A stretch of 64,000 nucleotides of DNA, taken from contig JAFEAQ010000011.1 in assembly GCA_018266295.1 (NCBI GenBank), positions 719,626 through 783,625 on the forward strand, in the 5' to 3' direction. The DNA is from Bdellovibrionales bacterium (GTDB lineage: Bacteria; Bdellovibrionota; Bdellovibrionia; Bdellovibrionales; Bdellovibrionaceae). Positions 2,771-19,663 of this stretch are shown here, one piece after another; within the stretch, counting starts at the first letter, position 1; every line of letters begins with the position of its first letter. The notes under the pieces were generated by a model. It saw nothing but the letters and a program-made list of their open reading frames with translations. It was not told the DNA's origin and searched no databases. Position numbers and translations under genes: made by a program.

Positions 2771-3193
2771 ATGAAAAAATTTGTTACAGCAACTCTGCTC
2801 ACTCTGGCTGTGATTACAGCCCACGCCCAAATCGAGACTTCCGCATTGCCTTCTTCACTGGGAAAGACAATGAAAGCAATGTCGAACGATTTGAAGACCA
2901 TCACGACCCAAGGAAGCAATCCACAAATGAATTCAAGCTCTGCGACTTTGGCAGATGAGTTCGTTCAGTTGACATTGCATGCAAAGGATTTTACGCCAGA
3001 CTCGATCAGCTCGCTTTCGAGTGATAAACGAGCGGCTGCCAAAGCCGAATATGATAAGCAACTGGATCAAGCTGCTGACTTAGGCCGACAACTTGCTGAT
3101 GCTTTCCGTAATAACAACAATACCCAAGCGGCTGCCTTGCTGAACCAACTTGTTCAGGCAAAAAAAGACGGCCACGATCAGTTCAAAAATTAA
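2771..3193 (+). CDS. periplasmic cytochrome b562 family protein
   Basis: A 140-residue protein with signal peptide (MKKFVTATLLTLAVITAHAQ) and a four-helix-bundle-like sequence. Start at 2771 follows GAGGGG; the frame is open to 2741. Aligned by eye with E. coli CybC, Met34 (in KTMKAMSNDLKTI) matches heme ligand Met7 and His135 (in KKDGHDQFKN) matches heme ligand His102, so both axial ligands of a b-type heme appear conserved. Family members are small periplasmic electron carriers of unclear partner. Here it sits just before a YceI gene and two c-type cytochrome genes, which supports a redox role. Good confidence in the fold, moderate in heme binding. Confidence 0.75.
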   Translation: MKKFVTATLLTLAVITAHAQIETSALPSSLGKTMKAMSNDLKTITTQGSNPQMNSSSATLADEFVQLTLHAKDFTPDSISSLSSDKRAAAKAEYDKQLDQAADLGRQLADAFRNNNNTQAAALLNQLVQAKKDGHDQFKN

Positions 3194-3292
3194 TTTTTAA
3201 AACCACAAAAAGCTTTTATTCAGAGAGCCGCTGCAGGCAAAAAACCCGCAGCGCGCCCCTTCTATTGTCAAAAATTTGTTCTAGGGGGATTT

Positions 3293-3850
3293 ATGAAGTG
3301 CCTTTTCGCTATTCTGTTTCTGATGTCCTCTGTGCAGGCTCAGGCCTCCACAACTACAAAATACAAAACAGGGCGTGACGATGGTCACCTGCAATTTCTC
3401 GCCATCGGCCGCCCCGCAATGATTCGCATCAAGGGTGAGTCACCGGGCCCACAAGGTCAAATCGACGTCGACGGCGGCAAAGCTCATGGCGAATTCACCT
3501 TGCTCCTCAGCGATCTAAACACCGGAATTGATCTTCGCGATGAGCATATGAAGAAAAAATATCTCGAGATCGATAAAAACCCAAGGGCGATACTCACCAT
3601 CACTTCCTTGAACTTACCCGCCAGCGATGCAGGAAGCGACCTGCCATTTGGCGGGGACCTGACTCTTCACGGAGTCACCAAAAAAATCGAGGGACATTTC
3701 TCTTATGAAACCAGCCAAGGGACTAAAAAAAGCCAGGTAGAATTTAAAATTCATTTGAGTGATTTTAATATCGCGATTCCAAATTATGCCGGCATGACAG
3801 TGGCTGATGAGGTTCAGGTAGAGGTTCGCACGAATCTCCGTCCGGAGTAG
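3293..3850 (+). CDS. YceI family periplasmic protein
   Basis: A 185-residue lipocalin-like YceI protein with an N-terminal signal peptide ending near VQAQAS. Family hallmarks are visible: SDLNTGIDLRDEHMKKKYLEID (~72-93), GDLTLHGVTKKIEGHFSY (~119-136) and the closing strand with FKIHLSDFNIAIPNYAG (~150-166). YceI proteins bind polyisoprenoids such as ubiquinone precursors in the periplasm and often sit next to cytochrome b561/b562 genes. AGGGGGA precedes the ATG. It is separated by 99 bp from the b562-like gene and by 2 bp from the following cytochrome-barrel gene, so it opens the second transcription unit of the redox block. Confidence 0.9.
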   Translation: MKCLFAILFLMSSVQAQASTTTKYKTGRDDGHLQFLAIGRPAMIRIKGESPGPQGQIDVDGGKAHGEFTLLLSDLNTGIDLRDEHMKKKYLEIDKNPRAILTITSLNLPASDAGSDLPFGGDLTLHGVTKKIEGHFSYETSQGTKKSQVEFKIHLSDFNIAIPNYAGMTVADEVQVEVRTNLRPE

Positions 3851-3852
3851 AT

Positions 3853-4944
3853 ATGAGAGCTATTTTACTTTTCGCCTTTTTTCTCGCACCCATTTTCGCA
3901 AAAGCGTTTCCGGAAATGATTCGATACGGATATGTAAACTGCACCGCCTGCCACACCTCCCCCGGGGGTGGCGGAGTGCTCACACCCTATGGACGGGGTC
4001 TTTCTGCGGAACTCCTCAGCACTTGGGGAACCGAGAAAGAAGCTCAGTTTCTTCATGGTGTCGTCAATCTTGAAACTGTGAACGAATGGCTTTCTGTCGG
4101 CGGTGACTACCGCGGTTTACAGTATCACTATGAAAACGATCAGGTTAAAGACGGTCAGTGGATCAATATGCAAGGGGCACTCGAGGCCGCTATAAGAATT
4201 AAAAACTGGGTCTTTGATTATGCCTTTGGCCGCTTCGAAGAAAATAGCTCCTGGAGCTCAGAAACCAACCATTATTACGTCCTATTTCAGGCGAACGATT
4301 ATTTTTCAATCCGCGCCGGGAAGTTCCTACCGCAATTTGGCTTGAGTATTCCGGAACACGTCTCACCGACGCGTGGCCCTCTTGGATTTGGCGCTTACGA
4401 CGAGCGCAATGCCGCCGAAGCTCAATTTGCCAACGAGAATTGGACCGTCACCGGAACCTATAGCATCGCCCCGAAGGATCATACAAATTCGGATGAAAAA
4501 GCCTGGGCTTTAAAAATTGAACGGGTTTTTGCTGACACTCTTAAACCCGGAGTCAGCTACTGGAGCGGCGACCTACCACAAAGCCGTCGTCAGATATTGG
4601 GCCTGCACGGTCTTCTCGGATTTACAAAAAAATTCTTCTGGCTCACCGAGTTTGACTGGCAAGAAGATACTGCCAAAAGCACTTCAGTGACCCAACACTC
4701 CGGCGCGACCTATCAAAAATGGGGCTACGAATTTTACAAAGGTGTGATCGGACTTTTGGTTGCCGATGCCCAGCGCACCACCTTAGAAAGTCCGGCGACA
4801 CAGACGGCTCACTATGGACTTGGCGTTCAATTTTTTCCACGCCCCCACTTTGAAATCGAAGGAGTGTGGATGAGAGAACGGGCTCCACAAATCACCGCTC
4901 AGGAGGGCGACTATGCGTGGCTTTTACTGCATTATTATCTCTAG
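3853..4944 (+). CDS. single-heme c-type cytochrome fused to outer-membrane beta-barrel
   Basis: A 363-residue protein. After a signal peptide (to about residue 18) comes a CxxCH heme site, C30-T-A-C33-H34, in the context RYGYVNCTACHTSPGGGG and then LTPYGRG. The remaining ~280 residues alternate polar and hydrophobic/aromatic residues with many Trp, Tyr and Phe at strand ends, and the protein ends LLLHYYL with aromatics near the terminus, as in barrels. This heme-then-porin order resembles Cyc2-type fused cytochrome-porins, but the heme context and the length differ, so I do not call it Cyc2. The next gene starts 32 bp inside it and encodes a diheme lipoprotein. An electron-passing outer-membrane role is inference. 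Confidence 0.7.
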   Translation: MRAILLFAFFLAPIFAKAFPEMIRYGYVNCTACHTSPGGGGVLTPYGRGLSAELLSTWGTEKEAQFLHGVVNLETVNEWLSVGGDYRGLQYHYENDQVKDGQWINMQGALEAAIRIKNWVFDYAFGRFEENSSWSSETNHYYVLFQANDYFSIRAGKFLPQFGLSIPEHVSPTRGPLGFGAYDERNAAEAQFANENWTVTGTYSIAPKDHTNSDEKAWALKIERVFADTLKPGVSYWSGDLPQSRRQILGLHGLLGFTKKFFWLTEFDWQEDTAKSTSVTQHSGATYQKWGYEFYKGVIGLLVADAQRTTLESPATQTAHYGLGVQFFPRPHFEIEGVWMRERAPQITAQEGDYAWLLLHYYL

Positions 4945-5635
4945 CTTATTGATTCTTGGATCCTGTAACTATCACGTCCTCAAAGATCCTGGTGCCTCTT
5001 CTCAAGATACATTTTCAGAAACAACAACTGTGGGTGCTGAGGTCGTGCAAAAAAGTGTTCTCGACACTTGCCTGCGCTGTCATAGTGGAAGCAACTCGCC
5101 GACGCTCAACACTCTCGATGCCATCAAAGCAAACATTAGCAAAATACAAGATGAGGTCCTGAGTAATTCTATGCCACCGGCAGATGCCGGCTATAAACCT
5201 CTCAGCGACTGCGAAAAAGACATTTTGCAAGAGTGGATCCAAGAAGGCATGCCGGACAACTCTAGCAAGAAGGTTTTTGATCTAGCCCACTGTCAAAGCG
5301 GCGTACCGCAAACTCCGCCTAAACCTCCTATTTTAGAGATGCCGCTGACTTATGAAACGCTCACCACAGAGGTCTTGCAGCCTCGCTGCCTGCACTGCCA
5401 TAACCCAAAAAGCGATGATCCAGATGCGAAAGACATCGCGCTCTATCCGTTTGCCGATCTGGTCGCGCAAAAGAACATGGTCATTGCCGCCGATGCGACT
5501 CACAGCAAGCTTTACAAATATGTCGCACGGACCGATGACGACCGAATGCCGCCTCCCGAAGACGGGGCATCTCTGACTGCCGACCAAATCGAATTTATAA
5601 AACGCTGGATCAATGCAGGGGCGCCGGAAAAATAG
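4913..5635 (+). CDS. diheme c-type cytochrome lipoprotein
   Basis: A 240-residue lipoprotein: the signal sequence ends LLILGSC (lipidated Cys17). Two heme-binding sites are seen, C53-LR-C56-H57 and C159-LH-C162-H163. Each is followed by a conserved MPP (SMPPAD, RMPPPED), likely the methionine axial ligand, and by a xxIxxWIxxGxP closing helix (LQEWIQEGMP, IKRWINAGAP). This is the tandem layout of Planctomycete-type cytochrome C-like domains. It overlaps the cytochrome-barrel gene by 32 bp, so the two are probably translated together and may be partners at the outer membrane. The stop abuts the convergent methyltransferase stop with no gap. Confidence 0.85.
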   Translation: MRGFYCIIISSLLILGSCNYHVLKDPGASSQDTFSETTTVGAEVVQKSVLDTCLRCHSGSNSPTLNTLDAIKANISKIQDEVLSNSMPPADAGYKPLSDCEKDILQEWIQEGMPDNSSKKVFDLAHCQSGVPQTPPKPPILEMPLTYETLTTEVLQPRCLHCHNPKSDDPDAKDIALYPFADLVAQKNMVIAADATHSKLYKYVARTDDDRMPPPEDGASLTADQIEFIKRWINAGAPEK

Positions 5636-6533: not shown

Positions 6534-7962
6534 ATGAAACAGTTTTCAGAGGGAAAGTGCAAATAAATTCAGAACCTTTGCCCATTTCGCTTTTAACCTG
6601 CACAGAACCGCCGTGGCTTTGCATAATGTGCTTTACGATGGCTAATCCTAGCCCCGTGCCGCCGGCATCGCGAGAACGGCCTTTATCGATACGATAGAAT
6701 CTTTCAAACAAGCGATCGTGATGTTCCGCCGGAATTCCCGGGCCGTTATCAAGCACACGCAGGATGACTGCCCCATCGCTGGCTTTTTCCCAGCGGATTT
6801 GCACGGTTTTACCCGCACCGATGTATTTCACGGCATTAGAAACCAAATTACGCAAAACTTGCTCGACCTTACGAACATCGGCGTTGAAACTCGTCACATC
6901 CTGAGCCCCGACGACCATCACCACTTGGTTTTTATCACGCATCATCGGCGCAAACTCCGAAACGATGTGCTCAGAAACCTGCAATGGATTCACCGGCTCG
7001 AACTTAATCTCTGGATTGGACTCCAGAGTCGAAATGCTCAAAAGATCATTCACAAGGTCCGCAAGACGTTCGACATTGCGAGAAATAATATCAACAAATT
7101 TCGCCGCGTGATCAAAGTTGCCTTTATTGACGTCGGCCTTCAGCGTGTCAACATAACCCTTGATCGACGTCAGTGGAGTCCTCAGCTCATGCGAAGCATT
7201 GCCGACGAACTCGATGCGCACCAGCTCGGCTTTCTTAAGCTCCGTGATGTCGTGGAAGATCCCCATGGCACCATAGACTTCGTTGCTTTTGCTTTTACGA
7301 AGCGGATTGACCGACACCCAGAAATAGCGGACGTTTTTTTCGAGTTTCGTTTCAAGCTTTACCTGAACGCGAAAACCGCGGCCTTCATTCAAAGCCCGCA
7401 AGAACGCCTCATGGATTTCAGGATAGCGAAAGATATCCGCCAAAGTCATCGCGCTTTGAACTTGTTTCGAGTCCATAAACTGCGTCGCGAATTGTGAGTT
7501 GAAATACAAAACACGCAGATCCGTGCTGACGCTGACAATCCCCTCTTCAACCGCGCTCATGAAGGCTTGAGTCTCTTCGCGCTCTTGCTGAAGCTGATCA
7601 CGGCGTTTTTTCATTTTACGATGAATGCGGTTCAAGGCGTTTTCAATTTGCGCGTACTCACCAAGCTCTTCATCGAGGAGGTCTTCGTCGTCTTCACTCT
7701 GATTTTCAAATTTTTTACTGGCTACACGGAAAGCCTTGAGGATGATCTTATGCAATGGGCGCGTAAAACGCCAAGCGATGCCGGCTGCGAGCAACAAAGT
7801 GACAAAGCTGTATTGTAAAACGATGGACCAGAAGTATCCCGTGCCGAAAGGACGGTAGGTGCTAACGATTCCCAGGCTGACAACAAAAAGCAAGTTGTAG
7901 AGAACAACTTGAATAAAATAAAATTGCCAGAAAAGCTTCCATGGGAATCGTGCTAAATTCAT
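6523..7962 (-). CDS. phoR: phosphate regulon sensor histidine kinase PhoR
   Basis: A 479-residue inner-membrane sensor kinase. Two membrane segments (~11-33 and ~44-64) are followed by a HAMP-like stretch, an acidic linker (DDEDLLDEE) and a coiled region. A PAS domain follows (~130-240), then HisKA with phospho-acceptor His258 (GNASHELRTPL), and HATPase_c with N box (RNLVSNAVKY), DNGPGIP and GGTGLGLAI. The order matches PhoR. The ATG overlaps the phoB stop by one base (TAATG), implying translational coupling. Genes phoB and phoU lie directly upstream, which supports the phosphate assignment, although no pst transporter genes are present in the window. Confidence 0.85.
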   Translation of the reverse strand: MNLARFPWKLFWQFYFIQVVLYNLLFVVSLGIVSTYRPFGTGYFWSIVLQYSFVTLLLAAGIAWRFTRPLHKIILKAFRVASKKFENQSEDDEDLLDEELGEYAQIENALNRIHRKMKKRRDQLQQEREETQAFMSAVEEGIVSVSTDLRVLYFNSQFATQFMDSKQVQSAMTLADIFRYPEIHEAFLRALNEGRGFRVQVKLETKLEKNVRYFWVSVNPLRKSKSNEVYGAMGIFHDITELKKAELVRIEFVGNASHELRTPLTSIKGYVDTLKADVNKGNFDHAAKFVDIISRNVERLADLVNDLLSISTLESNPEIKFEPVNPLQVSEHIVSEFAPMMRDKNQVVMVVGAQDVTSFNADVRKVEQVLRNLVSNAVKYIGAGKTVQIRWEKASDGAVILRVLDNGPGIPAEHHDRLFERFYRIDKGRSRDAGGTGLGLAIVKHIMQSHGGSVQVKSEMGKGSEFICTFPLKTVSSKS

Positions 7963-8687
7963 TATTGGGTGTCCATTTTCACGCGATAACCGACACCACG
8001 AATGGTTTCGATGTTATCGCTCCACGCCCCCAGCTTCTTGCGAAGACCAAAGACGTGAGTGTCGATGGTACGGCCGGTGACGTTAATGCCTTCACCTTGA
8101 ATATTTTCAATCAATTGATCACGAGTCAACACACGCCCCTGACTTTCAATCAAATTGCCAAGAAGCTTGAACTCTGACGGCGTCAGATGCAAAGGCTCGT
8201 CATTTAGCTTTACTTCGTAGGTTTTGAAATTCACGCTCAAACCCGCAAGTTGGATAAACTCTGCATCTTTCGCAGCCGGTGCATTTTGCAGACTGGAGCG
8301 ACGGAGAAGCGCCCGGACACGCGCCATAAAGACGCCCGGATCAAAAGGTTTTGTGAGGTAGTCATCGGCGCCGCCCTCAAGGCCGGTCACGATGTCTTGG
8401 GGCTCAGTCTTTGCCGTCACCATCAAAACATTCGGAGCGCCGGCAGTTTGTTTAATCTGTTGCAGGAAGTCGTGTCCACTGATTCCAGGAAGCATCCAAT
8501 CCAGGATGACAAGATGAAACTTTTGTTTTTGGATTTCGCTTTGAGCCTCTTCAGCGGAAGAGCACTCTTTGACTTTAAAGCCCTGACGGAGCAAGTGCAA
8601 AGCCATCAGTTCGCGAATTTCCTGTTCATCCTCCACCACTAAGATTGCGGCGTTGGAATCATGTGTATTTCCCACCATGTCTGACAT
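7962..8687 (-). CDS. phoB: phosphate regulon response regulator PhoB
   Basis: An OmpR/PhoB-class response regulator: receiver domain with phospho-acceptor D63 (HLVILDWMLPG) and the conserved TKPF lysine, followed by a winged-helix DNA-binding domain (HLTPSEFKLLGNLIES, VTGRTIDTHVFGLRKKL, IRGVGYRV). I place the start at the ATG at 8687, just after AGGTAAGG. The ATG at 8678 has better SD spacing (9 bases) and is an alternative; the open frame reaches 8723 but overlaps phoU further. The gene overlaps the end of phoU by 29 bp and joins phoR through TAATG. It is expected to bind the candidate Pho box at 9435-9463. Confidence 0.88.
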   Translation of the reverse strand: MSDMVGNTHDSNAAILVVEDEQEIRELMALHLLRQGFKVKECSSAEEAQSEIQKQKFHLVILDWMLPGISGHDFLQQIKQTAGAPNVLMVTAKTEPQDIVTGLEGGADDYLTKPFDPGVFMARVRALLRRSSLQNAPAAKDAEFIQLAGLSVNFKTYEVKLNDEPLHLTPSEFKLLGNLIESQGRVLTRDQLIENIQGEGINVTGRTIDTHVFGLRKKLGAWSDNIETIRGVGYRVKMDTQ

Positions 8688-9321
8688 CCTTACCTGTGAA
8701 CGCAAAAATAACATCTTCAGCAATATTGGTCGCGTGGTCCCCGAGACGTTCTAGGTTTCGGGCCACAAGAATGAGATCCAAGGACGCTTCTACATCTTGA
8801 GAAGCCGTTTTCATGTGACTGAGTTGATCTTTGAAAACTTTGTTTTTCAAACCATCGACTTCGTCATCCATCATCAAAATTTTCTTAGCCAGCTCGACAT
8901 CGCCACGAACGAAGCAATCCAAAGATTCCTTCACCATCGCACGCACGACATTCGACATGCGGCTGATATCATCAAGGTTTTGCAGAGGCTTACGGCCACA
9001 ATAGTCTTTACCGGTGTAGGCGATGTTCACGCATTGGTCGCCCATGCGCTCAAGATCGGTATTGATTTTAACGATGGAAAGAATCAAACGAAGATCCTTC
9101 GCTACAGGGCCTTGTTTTGCAAGAACCGCCAAGCAGGCATTATCGACGGCGATGTGACCTTCGTTAATTTTTTTCTCGATGTCGTGTACTTGGGCGAAAC
9201 TATCGACATTGCGAGACATCAGAGCATTCGTGGCTTCGTTCAGAGCTCTTTCAACGTGACCACCCATTACGAGAATAAGTCTCTTGAGCTCGTCCAATTG
9301 CGAATCCATTGTTCTTTCCAC
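8659..9321 (-). CDS. phoU: phosphate signalling protein PhoU
   Basis: A 220-residue helical protein with two PhoU repeats. Hallmarks are LDELKRLILVMGGHVERAL at the N-terminus, RDVDSFAQVHDIEKKINE-like metal-binding segments in each repeat (IEKKINEGH; MDDEVDGLKNKV) and the closing NLERLGDHATNIAEDV (~192-207). The start is a GTG at 9321, preceded by AGGAG at a 5-base spacing; an internal ATG at 9309 is the alternative. PhoU connects phosphate transport to PhoR activity and restrains the regulon. It heads the phoU-phoB-phoR unit, an order different from the E. coli phoBR and pst-phoU operons. Confidence 0.92.
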   Translation of the reverse strand: MERTMDSQLDELKRLILVMGGHVERALNEATNALMSRNVDSFAQVHDIEKKINEGHIAVDNACLAVLAKQGPVAKDLRLILSIVKINTDLERMGDQCVNIAYTGKDYCGRKPLQNLDDISRMSNVVRAMVKESLDCFVRGDVELAKKILMMDDEVDGLKNKVFKDQLSHMKTASQDVEASLDLILVARNLERLGDHATNIAEDVIFAFTGKDVRHGGKYT

Positions 9322-9434
9322 GCTAACTCCTGACCTTTACTTACTGAAATTGATTTTAAAAAGCAAATACACTCAGGAGCGCCCCGCATTTCATTTTCTT
9401 CAAATGGAGTGCGTCAAGCGAACCTGAGAAAACC

Positions 9435-9463
9435 CTTACAGGATTCTAACAAAATCCTAACAT
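9435..9463 (-). promoter_or_regulatory. candidate PhoB binding site (Pho box) upstream of phoU
   Basis: Read on the minus strand, three 7-base units ATGTTAG, TTGTTAG and CTGTAAG are each separated by exactly 4 bases, giving an 11-bp period. This is the spacing and TGT-first orientation of the classical Pho box (CTGTCAT-N4 repeated). It lies between the porin stop and the phoU start, about 115-140 bp upstream of phoU. A clear -10 element at the expected distance was not found. Confidence 0.5.
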
Positions 9464-9470
9464 TTTTCCT

Positions 9471-10529
9471 CTAAAAACTGACCCTTGTTGCTAAAACTAG
9501 CTGGCTTTCGTCGCGAATAGATGGCGAGAAGTCCTCGCTGTAATCCGTATACTCGTAAGCCAAGGCCCAACGGATGTCTTCGCTCGAGTCATAAGACACC
9601 CCGCCCGAGACGGATTTCAGGTTTTTATTCTTCTCTGGCTTCACCGGCGTGAGGTAATCCAAACGGACAAAGAGATCTGCTTTTTCAGTCATATCCCAAC
9701 GCCCGAACAAACTTGCGCCCTCACCATCAACCACAGTTGCATGCAGGGCCGAAACATCGACTCCTGCCGCCATGTGCCCGGCCGTCATCGCGTCCGCTGG
9801 ATCTTGAGTCGCATAATACTCTAATGCGAGCAGGCCGGCAGTGAACTCATAGCTTAGATTCACGGCCAGACGAGTTTTCTTGTTAAAACTGCTGTCGTAG
9901 TCATCATAGGCACCGTAGGTGTACGCAAGCATCGCATAAAACGGTGCCGCTTTCGTAAAACCGAAAAGCAGCTGGGCCTGTTTACGCTGACCGGTTTCAT
10001 CGCTTTGATAACCCTCGCCATTGGTGAAACTCAAAGCCCACTGCCCCAAATCATCCGGCAGCTCGCTCTGGTACATAGCTCCCAGGTCGGACCATGCCGC
10101 ATACTTGTACTTAATCATCGGTACTTGGCTCGTGACGCCCCAGAAATCGTAGTCCCATTGCTCACGCTGAAGTTCAATGTAGAAATCCGGGATCAAACCA
10201 TAACGCAACTCAGAGCGAGGTGGCAAAATGCTAGTCAAGCTGAGATAGCCTTCTTTGAGCTGCGTATCGAAACGCTTCGAAGTGCTATCGCGATATTCAG
10301 AGGTCTCAAGCTGTATGAAAATTTCGTTATTATCACGAAGCGGGGCTTCAATATCGAGGTTCAATCGTGGAATTGTAAACGCGGTCACACCTTGATCGCG
10401 GGTTGGCAATTGCTTGTATGTGAAGGCAACATCCAGCTCTCCGGAAAAACCCACGTCGGTGACAGCAAATGACTTCACACTCAGACCCGAAAAAAGAGTC
10501 AAAAAGATATAAAATTTGATTTTTTTCAT
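9471..10529 (-). CDS. putative outer-membrane porin
   Basis: A 352-residue protein with a signal peptide (MKKIKFYIFLTLFSGLSVKSFA) and a beta-barrel-like remainder: alternating strands, aromatic girdle residues, short acidic loops, and a terminal Phe (LVLATRVSF) as required for Bam-mediated assembly. The N-terminal part (FSGELDVAFTYKQL, LNLDIEAPLRDNNEIFIQLE) resembles phosphate-selective porin O/P-type proteins, but I cannot confirm selectivity. It lies upstream of phoU on the same strand and divergent from ppx with only 44 bp between start codons, so promoters for the two must be very compact or overlap. Phosphate-linked uptake is a contextual inference. Confidence 0.7.
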   Translation of the reverse strand: MKKIKFYIFLTLFSGLSVKSFAVTDVGFSGELDVAFTYKQLPTRDQGVTAFTIPRLNLDIEAPLRDNNEIFIQLETSEYRDSTSKRFDTQLKEGYLSLTSILPPRSELRYGLIPDFYIELQREQWDYDFWGVTSQVPMIKYKYAAWSDLGAMYQSELPDDLGQWALSFTNGEGYQSDETGQRKQAQLLFGFTKAAPFYAMLAYTYGAYDDYDSSFNKKTRLAVNLSYEFTAGLLALEYYATQDPADAMTAGHMAAGVDVSALHATVVDGEGASLFGRWDMTEKADLFVRLDYLTPVKPEKNKNLKSVSGGVSYDSSEDIRWALAYEYTDYSEDFSPSIRDESQLVLATRVSF

Positions 10530-10573
10530 AAACTCATGCTGACACTGTTTAAACTCTGTCGCAAGCTATTCCC

Positions 10574-11488
10574 ATGGGCGCAAAATTTTCTGCTATCGAT
10601 ATCGGTTCCAATGCCATTCGCATGATCGTCGGCGAAGTGGATAACTCCGAGATGAAAATCGTCAAAAAACTTCGCGCCCCCGTTCGTCTTGGCAAAGATG
10701 TTTTCATGAACGGCAATATCTCTGACAAAACTTTGGCCGAAGCCAAAGATGCCTTCAAAACATTTGCAAAAACCAACCGCGAATTCAAAGTCACTCGCTG
10801 CCGTGCGGTCGCGACCAGCGCTGTTCGAGAAGCGAAAAACAAAGCGAACTTTGTTAAAAGTATTTTTGCGGCGTCCAAAATTCAAATCGAAGTCATTGAT
10901 GGCGTGGAAGAAGCTCGCCTTGTTCACAATGCTATTCGTAAAGAAATTGATTTAGAAAACAAACGCATCCTGTCTGTCGATGTCGGCGGTGGCAGTGTCG
11001 AAATCACCTTCTCCGAAAATGGAATGATGAGCGCTACAGAGAGCTTCCCGATGGGAACAGTGCGCGTTTTAGATCAAATGCACCGCCGTAAACTGAATGA
11101 GAACCAAATTAATGTGATTATGGGTGAGTTCGTGGCGCCGTTGACGAACTATATGGATTCCCATATCGCGGCGGGTCCGTTGCACTTTGCCGTGGGAACC
11201 GGCGGCAACTTGGAGTGCATGGCACAACTCAAAGCTCAGATTCTGAAGAAAACTCCGACAACTTACATCACTCTGCGCGAACTCAATGAGATCGCCGAGA
11301 AATTAAAGTCTTTGAGTTATAAAGATCGTATGGAAAAATTAGAATTGCGCCCAGACAGAGCCGATGTCATCCTGCCAGCAACACTGATCGTGTTGACGGC
11401 GCTCCGTCAGGCGCACGTAGAGAAGATAGTTATTCCCAAGGTAGGCCTTCGCGATGGATTGCTTTGGTCTACTGCGGGGCTGATTTAA
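10574..11488 (+). CDS. ppx: Ppx/GppA family exopolyphosphatase-like phosphatase
   Basis: A 304-residue single-module member of the ASKHA-fold Ppx/GppA family. The phosphate-loop signatures are AIDIGSNAIRMIVGEV at the N-terminus, SVDVGGGSVEITF (~138-150) and AVGTGGNLECMAQL (~206-219). It hydrolyses terminal phosphates from polyphosphate or (p)ppGpp; the short length without the C-terminal HD-like domain of E. coli Ppx fits the Aquifex and actinobacterial type. It is near ppk1 and phoBRU, making a polyphosphate role more likely than GppA. Confidence 0.85.
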   Translation: MGAKFSAIDIGSNAIRMIVGEVDNSEMKIVKKLRAPVRLGKDVFMNGNISDKTLAEAKDAFKTFAKTNREFKVTRCRAVATSAVREAKNKANFVKSIFAASKIQIEVIDGVEEARLVHNAIRKEIDLENKRILSVDVGGGSVEITFSENGMMSATESFPMGTVRVLDQMHRRKLNENQINVIMGEFVAPLTNYMDSHIAAGPLHFAVGTGGNLECMAQLKAQILKKTPTTYITLRELNEIAEKLKSLSYKDRMEKLELRPDRADVILPATLIVLTALRQAHVEKIVIPKVGLRDGLLWSTAGLI

Positions 11489-11517
11489 GCCCCGCCACAG
11501 AAAATCACTGGCTGAAT

Positions 11518-12141
11518 CTATTTATTGAAACGATCCGAGAGGCGCTTAGCGCCATTGCAAAGCTGCGGAAGCTCACCGGCTTTTGCAGAATTCACAACGA
11601 ACTCGCCGCGCTTAGCATCGTATGTTTTGCAACTGAGGCCATTAAAATCATTCCCCATCGTCGCGCAGAGATAGAATGCCCCGTCTGCGATGTTTTTTGA
11701 TTTATACTGAATTGATTTATTCAAATAGTTGCGAAGAGTTTTAATGTCGGTCTCGTATGATGTAGAGCAACGACCATCTTCATCAACATATTTAGAATAT
11801 TTTTTCGGAGCTGGAGTCGGCACAGAGGGATCCGTGCTTTTATTAACAAGAGGATTGCAAATCTCTTGAACCGTCGTATAGGAAACGGAGAACTCTTCGC
11901 CCGTGGAAATTCTTTGCGCTTTACAAGAACGGCCATTCAAAAGGCCTTGGATCTTTTGGCAAGAAGCTGTGACGTTGTTTTCGCCATCATACTTCATAAT
12001 ACCACGTGTGATAATATTGTTATAAGCATCCAACGTCGCCTGAGTACAGGCCCCATTATCGACGCCAGCATCTTTTTCATTTTTAGCACAAGCCGAAAGA
12101 GCCAAAGCTCCCGCCACCAAAACCAACACCCCTAAACGCAT
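11518..12141 (-). CDS. cysteine-containing lipoprotein with internal duplication
   Basis: A 207-residue lipoprotein; the lipobox is LSAC (Cys18) after MRLGVLVLVAGALA. The mature part contains two similar ~65-residue units: one from CTQATLDAYNN to EICNP, the second from CSTSYETDI to QLCNGA. Each has an opening Cys, an NG.SCK motif, GEF.V and a closing CN, so four cysteines per unit could make matched disulfides. A Pro/Thr-rich linker (STDPSVPTPAPKK) joins them. I do not recognise the family. GAGGGG is only 2 bases from the ATG, an unusually short SD spacing. The stop faces the ppx stop across 29 bp. Confidence 0.7.
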   Translation of the reverse strand: MRLGVLVLVAGALALSACAKNEKDAGVDNGACTQATLDAYNNIITRGIMKYDGENNVTASCQKIQGLLNGRSCKAQRISTGEEFSVSYTTVQEICNPLVNKSTDPSVPTPAPKKYSKYVDEDGRCSTSYETDIKTLRNYLNKSIQYKSKNIADGAFYLCATMGNDFNGLSCKTYDAKRGEFVVNSAKAGELPQLCNGAKRLSDRFNK

Positions 12142-12184
12142 AACCCCTCACTTTTTAATTTGAAGGGCTCACTATAAAGGAATG

Positions 12185-12216
12185 GACTCCACACTTAAAT
12201 GGAAATGGGTGGAGTC
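12185..12216. repeat. inverted repeat upstream of RAYT remnant
   Basis: GACTCCAC (12185-12192) pairs perfectly with GTGGAGTC (12209-12216) across a 16-base loop. It lies in the otherwise empty stretch between the lipoprotein start (12141) and the transposase remnant, and could be one flank of a former REP-type element. Confidence 0.4.
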
Positions 12217-12375
12217 TGCAAACACTCCTTGATCGTCAAAAAACTCGACACCGAAGCCTGCCGAAAACCATTGTCCCCCTGGCTAAAACAGTCCCCAGCA
12301 CGAGATAAAGAACACGCGACCGAGTCCGACCAAGAGTCCAAAACTCTTCCGCCCCTTCTCCTCACGCCCGCCCGG

Positions 12376-12651
12376 AATAAGTTTTCTCTAAATTGGTCAC
12401 ATATCCATATGGTGATGTTATTCCCATCAAAGAAAGCCTATTTAGCTTTTATTAGAACGCTTACTTCTCTTCTTGTAAGTTTACTCTCAAAGCTTAAAGG
12501 AAAATCCTTAAAAGGCCTTTTTAACCTTCGCCCCTTTACCAGGATTCTTTCCTGGGGAAGGGATTTTAGAAATGTCATTCACTATCATGAACTCAATGAT
12601 ATGGAGGCTCGTGGGTTTCAAAGACCCAAGAAGAAAGCAAAGACCTCTTAG
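12376..12651 (+). pseudogene. C-terminal remnant of a REP-associated (Y1/HUH) tyrosine transposase
   Basis: The frame ending at 12651 contains SLNWSHIHMVMLFPSKKAYL, where HIH is the HUH-type metal motif of Y1 transposases, then LRPFTRILSWGRDFRNVIHYH and LNDMEARGF, the conserved tail of delta-proteobacterial and Bdellovibrio RAYT-like proteins; the Tyr in HYHELN is the likely nucleophile. Homology starts abruptly near 12376. Upstream codons in the same frame (open from 12199) do not look like the expected N-terminal half of the family, so the gene seems 5'-truncated and inactive. Hairpins flank it on both sides. Confidence 0.6.
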
Positions 12652-12718
12652 CAGAAGCCTAAGAGCTTAAAAAACATATGCAGATGTAATGGTATAACTG
12701 ACTACCAGCCATCCCTCT

Positions 12719-12783
12719 CCCTCTGATTATGGTAAACCTATAAGTTGACCTTAATCAGAGGGTGAAGAAATAAATCTCTTCAC
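12719..12783. repeat. tandem hairpins downstream of the transposase remnant
   Basis: Two perfect inverted repeats lie back to back: CCCTCTGATTA (12719-12729) with TAATCAGAGGG (12752-12762), 11-bp arms and a 22-base loop, then GTGAAGA (12762-12768) with TCTTCAC (12777-12783), 7-bp arms and an 8-base loop. They fill non-coding DNA directly downstream of the RAYT fragment, the normal place for REP-like substrates. No poly-T follows, so terminator function is unlikely. Confidence 0.5.
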
Positions 12784-12851
12784 TTGCCGAAGTGGCGTAC
12801 TTTGATTCTTATTGGGGCTTTGAAAGAAAGCTTGTACTAAATGCCGAAAGG

Positions 12852-12868
12852 CCGGCCCGGATGGCCGG
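12852..12868 (-). terminator. GC-rich hairpin downstream of sixA
   Basis: CCGGCC and GGCCGG pair around a 5-base loop about 30 bp past the sixA stop; on the minus strand it is followed by CCTTTCGGC rather than a clean T-tract. Weak terminator candidate, or a third palindrome of the RAYT-associated block. Confidence 0.3.
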
Positions 12869-12898
12869 AGGCACCCACGGCGGAGCCACCACCAAACC

Positions 12899-13405
12899 TC
12901 ACCCCACAATATGTCGCGGCTGCATCAGCCAGAGCAATTTCGCGGAGCCTGGGGTCACCGTTTTGAAGCTCTCGATTTTTAAACAGAGCATTCCGCTCTT
13001 CTTTAGTTCCAGCAATGCTTCCGTCTGGCCCGACATCAGGAAGCTTGCCAGAATGCTCAGCTGAGGTTCGTGGCCGACAATGAGGATGCGCTTATGCTCG
13101 TCCCCATGGGCCCGGAGCCAGCGCTTAAAGGCATGGGGAGGACTTGTTGGCACAAGCTCGGCAGCCTCGACGACTTTGGTTTCAATAAAGATCTGCGACA
13201 CGAGTTCGGCCGTCTGACGGGCGCGAGTAAAAGGACTTGAAACGATGAGATCAATTTCATCAATCCAATCACGCAACTTCATAGCGACCTTTTGGGTGCG
13301 TTTACGGCCCTTCATGGTTAAAGGACGCAAAGCATCTTCGGCATTCTTCTTGGCAAATTCCTCACGGTCTTCAGCGAGACCGTGGCGCATAATAATCAAT
13401 TCCAC
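12899..13405 (-). CDS. sixA: phosphohistidine phosphatase SixA (histidine phosphatase family)
   Basis: A 168-residue member of the small histidine-phosphatase branch. MELIIMRHG gives the catalytic His8 in an RHG motif; SSPFTRARQTAE (~56-67) supplies the second phosphate-binding Arg, and ILIVGHEPQLS (~107-117) the second catalytic His. The family's best known member dephosphorylates phosphohistidine in Hpt domains or PTS proteins. It begins 6 bp after the ppk1 stop on the same strand, so ppk1 and sixA form an operon, a pairing that fits handling of phosphohistidine and polyphosphate. Family confident, substrate inferred. Confidence 0.88.
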   Translation of the reverse strand: MELIIMRHGLAEDREEFAKKNAEDALRPLTMKGRKRTQKVAMKLRDWIDEIDLIVSSPFTRARQTAELVSQIFIETKVVEAAELVPTSPPHAFKRWLRAHGDEHKRILIVGHEPQLSILASFLMSGQTEALLELKKSGMLCLKIESFKTVTPGSAKLLWLMQPRHIVG

Positions 13406-13411
13406 AACACC

Positions 13412-15589
13412 TCAAGATTCTCCGCTGGAATTGCTTTCTTCAATGTTTTTCGCGCGCTGCTTGGCAAGCTGCATGAGCACTTGCTGCACGCCCGGCTCAT
13501 TTGACTTACGTTGGATATAATTGCCTTCGGATGTCATTTGCCAGCTCTGGCGTTCGTCTTTCAAAGATAGTTGCAAAATTTCCCAGATTTTCTCACGAGC
13601 ACCACGATCGATGATCGGCACCACCGCCTCGACCCGCGCATGCAGGTTGCGATACATCCAATCGGCCGAGCCAATATAAAATTCTCCGTCGATAGGATCT
13701 GCAGCACCATTTCTGAAATAGAAAATGCGCGAATGCTCTAGGAAGCGGCCGATGATCGAAGTCACCCGCAAGCGTTCGCTCATGCCCGGAACTTTCGGAC
13801 GCAAACAGCAGAAACCGCGCACGATCAAATCAATCTCAGCGCCTTTTTGCGATGCTTGATAAAGCGAAATCGCAATATCGTTTTCTTCCATATTGTTAAA
13901 CTTAGCAATGATCTGCGCCGGCTTGCCAGCCTTCGCAAGCTCGCCTTCGCGCTCAATCATGGCTTTAAAGCGCGGGAACATATTCACCGGCGCTACCAAT
14001 AATTTCTCGTAAGAGTTTTTCAATGAACGACCCGTGAGGTAATGGAAGAACTCAACGATCTCGTTGGTCAGCTCCTCGCGCGCAGTCAGTAATCCTAAGT
14101 CCGTGTAAAAACGCGACGTCGTCACGTTGTAGTTGCCGGTTCCGATGTGCGAATAGCAATGCAGTCCTTCGCTTTCTTGACGAACGACCAACGCCGTCTT
14201 CGCGTGCGTCTTCAATCCCACAACTCCGTACACCACGTGAACGCCGGCATTTTCAAGCTCCTGCGCCCAGTAGATATTTCTTTCTTCATCAAAGCGCGCT
14301 TTCAGCTCAACCAAGCAAACAACTTGCTTACCTGCTTCCGCCGCACGAATCAGGGAGCGGATAAACGGCGAATTGTCGCCGGTACGGTATAAAGTCATTT
14401 TGATCGCTAATACTTTTGGATCATCCGAAGCCAAGCGAATAAACTTCTCGACCGTCGAAGAAAAGCTTTCATACGGGTGATGCAAAATATGATCTTGAAC
14501 TTTAATCGCACCGAAGAAACCATTGGCGTCATCCACCGCAAGTGTCGGCGGCACAACCGCTGTCCACGGCTCGTATTTAAGCTTCGGCAGATTCAAAGTA
14601 TCGTAGACCATGTTCAAATCCGTGTAATCAAGCTCGCCTTTAAGTTCGTATAGGAACTCTTCAGACAGCTCGAGCTCTTCCATCAAAAACTGAATCATCC
14701 ATGGATCTGGATTTGGCCCATGCTCCAAGCGCACCACTTCGGCAAAGCGACGCTGACGGAGTTCTTCCTCGATCGTCTCGAGCAAATCTTCACTGTCTTC
14801 TTGATCGTGCTCAGAGTCCGCATTACGAGTCAGACGAAATGCCATGGCACTCGTGACTTGCATTGATGGAAACAAATCCGCGAGATTTTCGCGAATGACT
14901 TCCACGAGACTCACGAAGCGATAATTCACGCCGTCTGGATTGGCACGAATCCACTGCGGCAACACTTTCGGAATCTTCACGCGAGCAAAAAGTTTTTCAT
15001 CGCGCTCTGGATGCTTCAGTGTCACACCCAGCGAAGTTGAAAGATTTGAAATAAATGGAAACGGATGTCCTGGATCCACCGACAGCGGCGTCAACACAGG
15101 AAAGACGTTTTTATGATAATACTTCTTTACCAGCTCTTTTTCTTTAACCGCGAGGTCTTTCCACTTGATGAGATGAATTCCCTCTTCAGCCAGGGCCGGC
15201 TTGAGTTTTTTTTCAAAGCAAGTGTCTTGCTCGGCAATCATCGGCGTTACGATCTGACGGATCGCCGTCAACTGCTGCTGCGGAGTCTGCGCATCGGAAC
15301 TTTTCGGCGCAATCCCGTAAGCCACTTGCCGCTTAAGGCCCCCCACGCGTTTCATGAAAAACTCGTCCATGTTCGAAGACGAGATGCTTAAAAAGCGCAG
15401 ACGCTCCAATAAAGGATTGCGAGAATCCTCGGCCTCAGCCAATACACGACGATTAAAATGCAACCAACCGACTTCACGGTTGGTGAAGAGTTTTTCAGAT
15501 GACAATGGGTGTTCAACAACCTTGGGCTTTCGCGTACTGCGTTTTTTGCTGGTTGTTTTCTTGCTGCTGGAAGGCTTTGGCCCTATCAT
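13412..15589 (-). CDS. ppk1: polyphosphate kinase 1
   Basis: A 725-residue PPK1. After a Lys/Ser-rich N-terminal tail (~1-25) come the N domain (LFTNREVGWLHFNRRVL), NMDEFFMKRVGGLKRQV, and two PLD-like catalytic domains. His481 in HIGTGNYN is the expected autophosphorylated residue and His619 in LEHSRIFYF the second conserved His. The C-terminal FYIGSADWMYRNLHARVE is also typical. The enzyme makes inorganic polyphosphate from ATP at the inner membrane. It is cotranscribed with sixA and divergent from thiL with 70 bp between start codons. Together with ppx and phoBRU it makes this region a phosphate-reserve locus. Confidence 0.96.
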   Translation of the reverse strand: MIGPKPSSSKKTTSKKRSTRKPKVVEHPLSSEKLFTNREVGWLHFNRRVLAEAEDSRNPLLERLRFLSISSSNMDEFFMKRVGGLKRQVAYGIAPKSSDAQTPQQQLTAIRQIVTPMIAEQDTCFEKKLKPALAEEGIHLIKWKDLAVKEKELVKKYYHKNVFPVLTPLSVDPGHPFPFISNLSTSLGVTLKHPERDEKLFARVKIPKVLPQWIRANPDGVNYRFVSLVEVIRENLADLFPSMQVTSAMAFRLTRNADSEHDQEDSEDLLETIEEELRQRRFAEVVRLEHGPNPDPWMIQFLMEELELSEEFLYELKGELDYTDLNMVYDTLNLPKLKYEPWTAVVPPTLAVDDANGFFGAIKVQDHILHHPYESFSSTVEKFIRLASDDPKVLAIKMTLYRTGDNSPFIRSLIRAAEAGKQVVCLVELKARFDEERNIYWAQELENAGVHVVYGVVGLKTHAKTALVVRQESEGLHCYSHIGTGNYNVTTSRFYTDLGLLTAREELTNEIVEFFHYLTGRSLKNSYEKLLVAPVNMFPRFKAMIEREGELAKAGKPAQIIAKFNNMEENDIAISLYQASQKGAEIDLIVRGFCCLRPKVPGMSERLRVTSIIGRFLEHSRIFYFRNGAADPIDGEFYIGSADWMYRNLHARVEAVVPIIDRGAREKIWEILQLSLKDERQSWQMTSEGNYIQRKSNEPGVQQVLMQLAKQRAKNIEESNSSGES

Positions 15590-17451: not shown

Positions 17452-18858
17452 ATGAAAAACTCTGTCTGTGCGTCTCTATCTTCGACTCTTTTTTCTGTTC
17501 TTCTTTCAGCTGTTCTAGTGGCCGGTTGTTCTAACAACAACAAGAGCGTTGCCCTTCGCGATGGCACTGCCACTCCTGCTCCGGGCGAGCAACCAAAGCC
17601 CTCAAATCCTGGTGAAAAACCTGGATCAACTCCAGTACCATTGCCGTCTCCAGGCGATGTGACAAACCCGGGCGCTCCTGGCACTCAGCCGACTCCGACA
17701 CCTACACCGGCCCCTGTCGCAAAACGTGTCGCGCGCTTCATGTGTGAAGGTGCGATGTCAAAATCTTTCAACACGCTTCGTTCAGATGCAGCGTCAAACT
17801 TCCAAATGCCATCCCTTACTCCAACAATGAGCGATTTCCCAATGTATTGGGTATCTACAGCAGTGCCTTTGCAAAGCGACGGCAACACGGTGTTCTTTGT
17901 CATGCAAGGACAAGAGCAACTCGGAAGTCCGCTAAAAATCTACCGTTCTACTGGAAACCTGTTGTCAGGCGCTGCGAATGCTCAAGTTCTTTCTAACTTT
18001 GCGGGTGTTCCATCTCAAGGTGGCTTCCCTTACGAAAATCTAAAGCTAAGCAGACATGTTCTGAGTGCCAACTGGAAACGCACGGCATACCTCTATCCTG
18101 CAACAGATGGCACATACACTTGGGAAAGTCTCAAGGGTAGTAAGTTCACCGTTCCATTCAATGCCAATGATTCCTTCAATCCGGAGTTCATCGGCGGCGA
18201 TGACTATCTCCGCTTTGAACAAGAGCGCACGGGTTACGGCACGCTCACTCAGAAGTTCTATAACTTCGATACCAAGAAAACATTCTCTTTGCCGTCGCCC
18301 CTGGACGACAAGGACTCTCAACTCTTTGGCTTCATTGATGGTGCCAAAAAGAACGTGTTTTGGGTTGAAGGCCGTCTTGAAGGCACTTGGAAAATCCGCA
18401 TGGCGAGCCTCAACTCGCCTTCTAAAGGCATGACCGTAGGGACGCTTTCTGGCTCAGCGATTCGCTTGCCAATGACATTTGTGAATCGTGATGGCGAAAC
18501 TGTTTTGACTTATCTTGAAGAGCAATTTGCAACAGACAGCAGAGGCCGCCTTTTTATGAAGTCCGGCGCGATCCACGTCGTGAAAGCAAGCGCTTCTCAA
18601 GTTAAAATCACTTCTGACAAAACAGTTTCTTACTCGGAAGAGATTAAAAACGGGTCGGTCAACCCGACTGTTCTTGCCGGTGGCGTTCTCAACGGACTTT
18701 TTGTAGATCCTATTTCTGGCCGTGTGTTCTCTTCATTTAGCGCTGTCGGCGGATTGGTAAGTTTTGATTTAAATAGCTATAGCTGGCGTACTCACGGAGC
18801 GATCAGTGGTTCTGCTTGCTATAATCCAGCATGGGGAATCGAGGTAACAAATGAATAA
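17452..18858 (+). CDS. surface lipoprotein with Pro-rich linker and beta-propeller-like domain
   Basis: Start set at 17452 (GAGGGG upstream; open frame from 17371), giving a lipoprotein signal with lipobox VAGC. A ~45-residue Pro/Gly/Thr linker follows (GEKPGSTPVPLPSPGD..., TPTPTPAP). The ~380-residue C-terminal part has repeating strand motifs ending in W, Y or F with D/N-rich turns (LKIYRSTGNLL, RTAYLYPATDGTYTW, KNVFWVEGRLEGTWKIRMA), as in TolB-like propellers, but I cannot name a family. Its stop overlaps the next gene's ATG by 8 bp. It is the first gene of a four-gene envelope operon that includes a TolC-like channel. Confidence 0.7.
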   Translation: MKNSVCASLSSTLFSVLLSAVLVAGCSNNNKSVALRDGTATPAPGEQPKPSNPGEKPGSTPVPLPSPGDVTNPGAPGTQPTPTPTPAPVAKRVARFMCEGAMSKSFNTLRSDAASNFQMPSLTPTMSDFPMYWVSTAVPLQSDGNTVFFVMQGQEQLGSPLKIYRSTGNLLSGAANAQVLSNFAGVPSQGGFPYENLKLSRHVLSANWKRTAYLYPATDGTYTWESLKGSKFTVPFNANDSFNPEFIGGDDYLRFEQERTGYGTLTQKFYNFDTKKTFSLPSPLDDKDSQLFGFIDGAKKNVFWVEGRLEGTWKIRMASLNSPSKGMTVGTLSGSAIRLPMTFVNRDGETVLTYLEEQFATDSRGRLFMKSGAIHVVKASASQVKITSDKTVSYSEEIKNGSVNPTVLAGGVLNGLFVDPISGRVFSSFSAVGGLVSFDLNSYSWRTHGAISGSACYNPAWGIEVTNE

Positions 18859-19663
18859 ATTTATCGTAACATCAGTTGTATTTGCATCATCATTGACGGT
18901 ATTTGCTGCTCCGAAGTCTTCCACCAAAGTAAAAGCTCCCGCAGCAGAAGAGCAAGCTTCTATTCGCGCGGAAGCAGTTAAAGAAACTGAGTCTCTCGAT
19001 ACGAAAGCTTATAAGAAGACCATCCAAGCTTCGGAAGCTCAACAAGCCAATGTTTCTACATTCTTGAAGTTGCAAGATCCGGCTCCAGAACTCCGTAACC
19101 GTCCTTGGCTTTGGACTTTCGCATTCAAATTGCAGAGCATGCAGCCCCTCGGCACCGGCACTGTCGCTAGCTACAACTTCGACTTGGACAGCTACGGCAC
19201 AGGCGTCATGCCTTCTTTGGAATTTGGATTTCTTGTAAACACTGTGGAAGGCTCGAAAGCGACTTGGGCTTCCGGCTTGTCTGCTCACGCAGGTTATATG
19301 TCTCAGAAGACAGACCTCGTGGCTCCAAATGGTTACAATTTCAAGGATAGCCGTTTGACGACGACTCTAGTCAGCGCTGTTTGGAACAATCGCATTAAAA
19401 CTGGTTTTGCTCCCAAAGTTGCTTTCTTGTTCAATCCAGAAATTGGTTTCGTGAACTATACTCAGACAAATAATAGCTCGACTCTTGCTAACTTTTCCCA
19501 GCAAAATAACTTCTGGGGGGTTGGCGTTGGAGCAGAATACTCATTTACTCCAAAGTGGGCTCTTTTGGCCCAGTATAGCTACCGCGATGCTGAAGCCAAG
19601 AAAGCCGAGACCTCAAATCTTCAAAAGAATAACGTAGAAATCGGAACACAGGTCACATGGTAA
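18851..19663 (+). CDS. outer-membrane beta-barrel protein
   Basis: A 270-residue protein. A signal peptide (MNKFIVTSVVFASSLTVFAA) is followed by ~60 polar, Ala/Glu/Lys-rich residues (periplasmic extension) and then an apparent 8- to 10-stranded barrel from about residue 85, with amphipathic strands and a terminal aromatic (VEIGTQVTW). It overlaps the upstream lipoprotein by 8 bp and the downstream TolC-like gene by 7 bp, so the three products are probably made in fixed ratio. Family unknown. Confidence 0.72.
   Translation: MNKFIVTSVVFASSLTVFAAPKSSTKVKAPAAEEQASIRAEAVKETESLDTKAYKKTIQASEAQQANVSTFLKLQDPAPELRNRPWLWTFAFKLQSMQPLGTGTVASYNFDLDSYGTGVMPSLEFGFLVNTVEGSKATWASGLSAHAGYMSQKTDLVAPNGYNFKDSRLTTTLVSAVWNNRIKTGFAPKVAFLFNPEIGFVNYTQTNNSSTLANFSQQNNFWGVGVGAEYSFTPKWALLAQYSYRDAEAKKAETSNLQKNNVEIGTQVTW

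Follow-up and report, generated by a model that had tools for sequence, protein, structure and literature searches.

A conserved cassette of a monoheme cytochrome-porin fusion, a YceI lipocalin and a heme lipoprotein in Bdellovibrionota: a candidate module for electron transfer across the outer membrane

The DNA analysed here, hereafter the window, is a stretch of 64 kb (contig C11:719626–783625) within the 4.22-Mb genome of a Bdellovibrionales bacterium. Close to its start, four genes on one strand encode a cytochrome b562-like protein, a YceI-family lipocalin, a fusion of a monoheme cytochrome with a porin-type barrel and a diheme lipoprotein (Table 1). The YceI and fusion genes are spaced by 2 bp, the fusion and diheme lipoprotein genes share 32 bp (4913–4944), and these last two are the sole open reading frames (ORFs) of at least 80 residues with a CxxCH site in the window. 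A preliminary description made from the letters alone had read this cluster as an electron route across the envelope. Its assignments of the b562-like protein with both ligands (M34 and H135), the YceI protein, the CxxCH site fused to a barrel and the overlapping diheme lipoprotein (C53/H57, C159/H163) were all borne out, the first with weak Pfam support.

Table 1. Coordinates of the cassette genes and of selected residues within the window
Feature	Position	Strand	Evidence
Cytochrome b562-like secreted protein, 140 aa	2771–3193	+	PF07361; M34 and H135 at b562 heme-ligand positions
YceI-family lipocalin, 185 aa, divergent cassette-linked subfamily	3293–3850	+	PF04264
Monoheme cytochrome-porin fusion, 363 aa	3853–4944	+	AlphaFold model, OprO match, Cyc2-like heme segment
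CxxCH heme-attachment site, fusion residues 30–34	3940–3954	+	C30, C33 and H34 invariant
Met106 of fusion, candidate second heme or metal ligand	4168–4170	+	Identical in 121/121 fusions
His169 of fusion, candidate second heme or metal ligand	4357–4359	+	Identical in 121/121 fusions
Two-domain diheme c-type cytochrome lipoprotein, 240 aa	4913–5635	+	PF13442, PF07635, two CxxCH

The fusion comprises a signal peptide (approximately residues 1–18, a hydrophobic leader assigned by eye), a heme segment (approximately 19–60) carrying C30-x-x-C33-H34, and a 16-stranded barrel (80–362). It matched no family in Pfam or NCBIfam. An AlphaFold model built from 44 sequences, namely the window protein and its relatives, had a mean predicted local distance difference test score (pLDDT) of 88.6 and a predicted template modelling score of 0.85, with 16 strands between residues 80 and 362. 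A barrel beyond residue 60, as claimed in the preliminary description, is accordingly predicted with confidence. Foldseek matched the model to chitoporin, OprP and OprO, and VIA-align ranked OprO first (Z 24.3 over 289 residues, 2.8 Å), with OprP at Z 24.2; both outscored other 16-strand porins by about one Z unit. These structural matches span fusion residues 64–363 only, the heme segment lying outside them. Searches of PDB sequences with phmmer gave no meaningful match for the fusion or for the b562-like protein, and the best PDB match of the fusion-family profile, Porin O, was not significant (E 0.083).

Conservation was assessed across 121 fusions from divergent loci, with identities down to 24%. 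Every one of them carries exactly one CxxCH. The fully identical columns include Tyr27, Cys30, Cys33, His34, Gly39 and Tyr46 in and around the heme segment, and further along Met106, Gly163, His169, Gly297 and Pro329. Beyond the CxxCH, Met106 and His169 are the sole invariant residues of the kind that usually ligates heme, and both stand in local contexts that align without gaps (MQ and [FY]G[LIV]xxx[DEN]H, respectively). In the predicted model, Met106 lies midway along strand 2 (99–116), and His169 lies in the segment between strands 5 and 6 (159–184), where porins have the constriction loop L3. By their conservation and predicted placement, the two residues may bind heme or a metal as candidate second ligands.

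The likeness to the fused cytochrome-porin Cyc2, which the preliminary description had invoked, was examined with six Cyc2-type proteins from plasmid records (Caballeronia, Methylocystis, Ideonella, Polymorphobacter, Paraburkholderia and Acidithiobacillus). Retrieved with a consensus probe of 35 residues, they conform to the motif as published and are Cyc2-type by sequence. A tblastn search of plasmid records with P0003 gave no match. Profile alignment with hhalign joined the fusion to the Cyc2-type set only over the N-terminal segment (E 1.6e-7, leader included). Without the signal peptide, the heme segment scored 42.6 against Cyc2, whereas the partner cytochromes of the fusion and those encoded near Cyc2 gave 27–30. 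None of 200 column shuffles with the CxxCH held fixed reached this value, the best scoring 33.5. At the level of sequence, the heme segment of the fusion therefore resembles that of Cyc2 beyond what generic cytochromes share. The resemblance in the window protein consists of A-x-P-x-x-x-R-x5-CxxCH followed by an L-T-x-Y-G-R block, and a relaxed motif, P-x3-[RKSQ]-x5-CxxCH, is present in 101/121 fusions. The structural homologs that have been reported for Cyc2 (PMC8406198) are likewise OprO and OprP, the best matches of the predicted barrel.

Gene neighbourhoods were surveyed around a non-redundant set of 95 fusions (below 85% identity), with neighbours counted within 3.5 kb. A YceI gene was found beside 74 of them, a heme protein homologous to the diheme lipoprotein beside 77, and both beside 64; these counts are a lower bound, since some loci end at contig borders. 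In 40 arbitrary 13-kb control stretches from the same genome set, YceI occurred once and the heme protein and b562 not at all, the controls being mostly from the window's own family and the neighbour profiles being derived partly from the same loci. The cassette neighbourhood is conserved far beyond chance. The window's genome itself holds four fusions, and every one adjoins both a gene for YceI and one for a CxxCH protein. No two of the four loci share an arrangement, and in one of them the genes lie on opposite strands. Linkage of YceI and the diheme lipoprotein to the fusion, and of the fusion to other cytochromes, had been suggested from the window alone and recurs throughout the phylum. 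The conserved unit, however, is three proteins (fusion, YceI and heme lipoprotein) rather than the four-protein set originally described. Nor is the system unexpected in a predator, as had been supposed, at least for the phylum, because the fusion family is present in 135/192 genomes sampled from Bdellovibrionota. Among named relatives, the same fusion is carried almost exclusively by metagenome-assembled genomes (MAGs) of Bdellovibrionota/Oligoflexia.

Some individual loci show further arrangements. Two heme-barrel cassettes (L092 and L093) share a contig of the window's genome (C19:204700–225342) at a distance of approximately 17 kb, and a tandem pair of heme-barrel fusions with a short heme protein between them was found at L085:5932–8641. 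A MAG titled Streptomyces griseus also carries a YceI and heme-barrel pair (L086, CALQIT020000086.1); its title or binning is probably wrong.

The YceI partner is a well-supported family member (PF04264, E 1.4e-19, 71 bits, above the cut-off). Its AlphaFold model (pLDDT 90.9) matched 1wub, 5ixg and 1y0g, with BcnB, BcnA and Escherichia coli YceI among the fold matches. YceI lipocalins hold ubiquinone-8 or other isoprenoids (PMC9113575). Nine YceI genes are encoded in the window's genome, and the four lowest-scoring are those beside the fusions. Among the YceIs listed from 61 genomes, 36/65 scoring below 85 bits lay within 3.5 kb of a fusion, compared with 1/85 scoring above it (Fisher p 1e-15, with the threshold chosen post hoc and related genomes not independent). 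Two groups of YceI can thus be told apart in the phylum, an ordinary high-scoring one and a low-scoring one whose members mostly are, or may be, linked to the cassette.

The diheme lipoprotein has two class-I-like cytochrome domains (PF13442, E 1e-7; PF07635, E 7.9e-7; both above cut-offs), an MPP motif after each heme site and a lipobox-like LGSC. Heme lipoprotein and YceI are encoded as a single ORF at L065:4764–5936 and L125:2713–3885, possibly from the same species. The window's genome also encodes a cytochrome c assembly protein (PF01578).

The b562-like protein matched PF07361 over residues 30–139, its full length, with E 3.9e-6 and 27.9 bits against a cut-off of 30; a paralog at C19:203559 scored 35.3 bits, above that cut-off. 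The ligand Met and His are aligned and conserved in all six cassette-linked copies. Both b562 genes of the window's genome lie at most about 2.2 kb from a fusion. Of the 31 places with b562 in 120 genomes, just one other (G098) is equally close, and the hidden Markov model set adds G034/L043, which brings b562 beside 4/95 non-redundant fusions. The protein is an occasional accessory, not part of the core.

A second accessory set recurs at L093, L081/L135, L083 and L134, and partly at L136 and L080. It comprises a PBP-like (PstS-type) protein, a multiheme protein of 860–890 residues and a Porin_5 barrel. The extended order at L093 (C19:212000–231999, positions 7538–14557) is PBP/PstS-like protein, multiheme protein, YceI, diheme lipoprotein, heme-barrel and Porin_5. 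YceI is missing at some of the loci L093, L081, L083, L134 and L135. A phosphate- or oxyanion-related role of this extended cassette is conceivable. Separately, copper or heavy-metal genes (CsoR-type repressor, multicopper oxidase, CopC, RND efflux, P-type ATPase) border cassettes at L054, L056, L059, L060, L063, L087, L123, L124 and L128. Copper linkage as a general rule was rejected, as CsoR-type genes showed no significant excess over the controls.

With a probability that we place slightly above even, the cassette is a trans-outer-membrane electron-transfer module, in which the barrel heme would relay electrons from an outside donor to the diheme lipoprotein and YceI would carry a quinone-type lipid. 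The fusion would reside in the outer membrane as a porin of 16 strands, and its N-terminal heme segment, by analogy with what is proposed for Cyc2, would cap the pore or enter it from the periplasmic side. The single heme would take an electron from a small donor able to reach the pore, Fe(II) or some other reduced metal being the most plausible choice, and Met106 and His169 may complete the coordination of the heme from within the barrel; alternatively, these two may hold a metal. The electron would then move to the lipid-anchored diheme cytochrome, to b562 where present, and finally into the respiratory chain. Through its putative quinone-type cargo, the YceI lipocalin might serve as a redox link to the membrane or as its protector. 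We infer the covalent heme, the membrane placement, the direction of transfer, the donor and the YceI cargo from sequence, linkage, predicted folds and residue invariance.

Several points weigh against this electron-transfer reading. The AlphaFold model of the fusion contains no heme, and 8/95 fusions have neither partner within 3.5 kb. Of the Cyc2 signature motifs, taken from PMC8406198, AxPxFAR[QK][TY] upstream of the CxxCH and PxL within 8 residues after it were each found in 0/121 fusions, for which reason the family is called Cyc2-like and is not assigned to Cyc2. Linkage to YceI, a property of the fusion family, was absent from the Cyc2 loci fetched.

The main rivals have precedents of their own. 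BcnA, a YceI-family protein of Burkholderia, counters lipid peroxyl radicals together with LcoA, a cytochrome b561 (PMC9113575), and Cbp2D of Cellvibrio japonicus joins the YceI-like domain X158 to c-type cytochrome domains X183/X132 in one chain (PMC8981238); these examples make antioxidant and metal-handling roles serious rivals. As an envelope antioxidant, the cassette would use the YceI quinone to quench outer-membrane lipid peroxyl radicals; the heme proteins would re-reduce or discharge the quinone, with the heme-barrel as electron sink or source. The known pairing of YceI with cytochromes speaks for this: BcnA and LcoA guard against lipid peroxidation, and many genomes link the two, at times by fusion (PMC9113575). 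The BcnB and BcnA matches of the cassette YceI model and the fusion of heme lipoprotein and YceI in one lineage speak for it as well. This account is nevertheless improbable in our estimate, as it leaves the conserved heme-barrel unexplained, the partner cytochromes are c-type rather than b561, and the ordinary high-scoring YceIs, nearer the BcnA kind by Pfam score, are precisely those found near a fusion in just 1/85 cases.

Met and His are typical soft-metal ligands, and the invariance of Met106 and His169 would also suit a heme-barrel that, at the outer membrane, oxidises or reduces metal ions that are toxic or in short supply (Cu(I)/Cu(II), Fe), to detoxify them or take them up rather than to gain energy. 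The CsoR-type repressors, multicopper oxidases, CopC and P-type ATPases at L054, L056, L059, L060, L123, L124 and L128 point the same way. We consider such metal handling decidedly unlikely, given that CsoR-type genes were found at 6/122 cassette loci against 0/40 controls, an excess that is not significant, and that the surroundings of the window cassette showed no metal genes. Least likely by our assessment is a diffusion porin with a structural heme serving as plug or sensor, the linked cytochromes belonging to a separate periplasmic path: one heme alone cannot span the membrane and the nearest solved folds are ordinary substrate porins, but the linkage to multi-domain c-type cytochromes is persistent, the heme segment is Cyc2-like, and Cyc2, likewise with one heme, is a reported iron oxidase (PMC8406198).

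The trans-outer-membrane electron-transfer reading also has a stronger form, which we regard as unlikely at present. In it, Cyc2-like heme-barrels would operate phylum-wide, the second heme ligand would be the invariant His or Met of the porin, and a dedicated YceI would couple the route to a quinone-type lipid as an obligatory part, possibly for use at the surface of the cell or within prey.

Cyc2 and its link to iron oxidation account for most of what is known about fused heme-porins. If the proposed function is correct, a second, divergent branch of heme-porins with a conserved YceI partner, in a phylum known best for predators, would widen the search for trans-outer-membrane electron transfer. 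For the question of YceI lipocalin function, the cassette provides a concrete genetic system. Surveys that use Cyc2 motifs or a 365-residue filter are likely to overlook the family, because the motifs are absent in 121/121 fusions and the window protein, with 363 residues, fails the FeGenie Cyc2 length filter (≥365). According to a 2026 study, FeGenie at default settings detected no iron-related genes in Bdellovibrionota MAGs recovered from an iron-rich spring (PMC13200544); those MAGs were not scanned here for the cassette. Our literature search, whose coverage was incomplete with most subscription journals outside it, found no paper naming the cassette and no account of a comparable electron-transfer device in these bacteria. 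Among the texts it covered, none joined Bdellovibrio, cytochrome c and YceI, and three mentioned both Bdellovibrio and Cyc2.

Around the cassette, promoter and terminator scans yielded no more than shuffled sequence, and the gap at 3194–3292 showed RNA folding no better than shuffles (z −1.14). Directly upstream, 2202–2744 encodes a secreted 180-residue protein without a family match, preceded on the opposite strand by a TIGR02147/DUF4423 protein (1294–2106). Farther along the window, 18851–19663 encodes a predicted outer-membrane barrel of 270 residues. A weak DUF5777 match at approximately 19451–19681, the only one in the genome, overruns the end and stop codon of this gene and probably reflects general barrel likeness. 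A parallel to a putative DUF5777 barrel/YceI cassette of Bacteroidota was dropped because this lone hit falls on an unrelated barrel with no adjoining cytochrome.

Among known systems, the cassette is of the kind represented by Cyc2, a fused monoheme porin with partner cytochromes. Cyc2, an outer-membrane protein of Acidithiobacillus, Mariprofundus and further bacteria, carries one heme and is reported to oxidise iron (PMC8406198). Common to both are a signal peptide, a single N-terminal CxxCH and a 16-stranded OprO/OprP-like barrel, predicted in the case of the fusion, and c-type cytochrome genes lie near all six Cyc2-type genes, as they do near the fusion. The fusion family differs in a glycine-rich insert after the CxxCH, in being usually shorter, and in Met106 and His169, which have no counterpart among the invariant columns of the six Cyc2-type proteins. 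The divergent sequence branch, the invariant barrel Met and His and the YceI partner make the cassette new relative to Cyc2. BcnA–LcoA shares a YceI lipocalin gene linked, and sometimes fused, to that of a heme electron-transfer protein, but its partner is a membrane b561, whereas the cassette partners are a c-type lipoprotein and a heme-barrel; the YceI subfamily also differs. Cbp2D, in which a single polypeptide holds a YceI-like domain that binds quinone and two cytochrome domains with one CxxCH each, is comparable to the natural fusion at L065, but is a secreted cellulose-binding protein tied to the reduction of lytic polysaccharide monooxygenases, with no barrel partner reported. The window b562-like protein, just below its family cut-off, resembles cytochrome b562 in its Met and His ligands, one at each end of a protein predicted to be helical. 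MtrAB, MtoAB and PioAB resemble the proposed cassette role in that a barrel and c-type cytochromes carry electrons across the outer membrane; they do so with a 26-strand barrel and a separate decaheme protein, whereas the cassette would combine 16 strands, one fused heme and a diheme partner.

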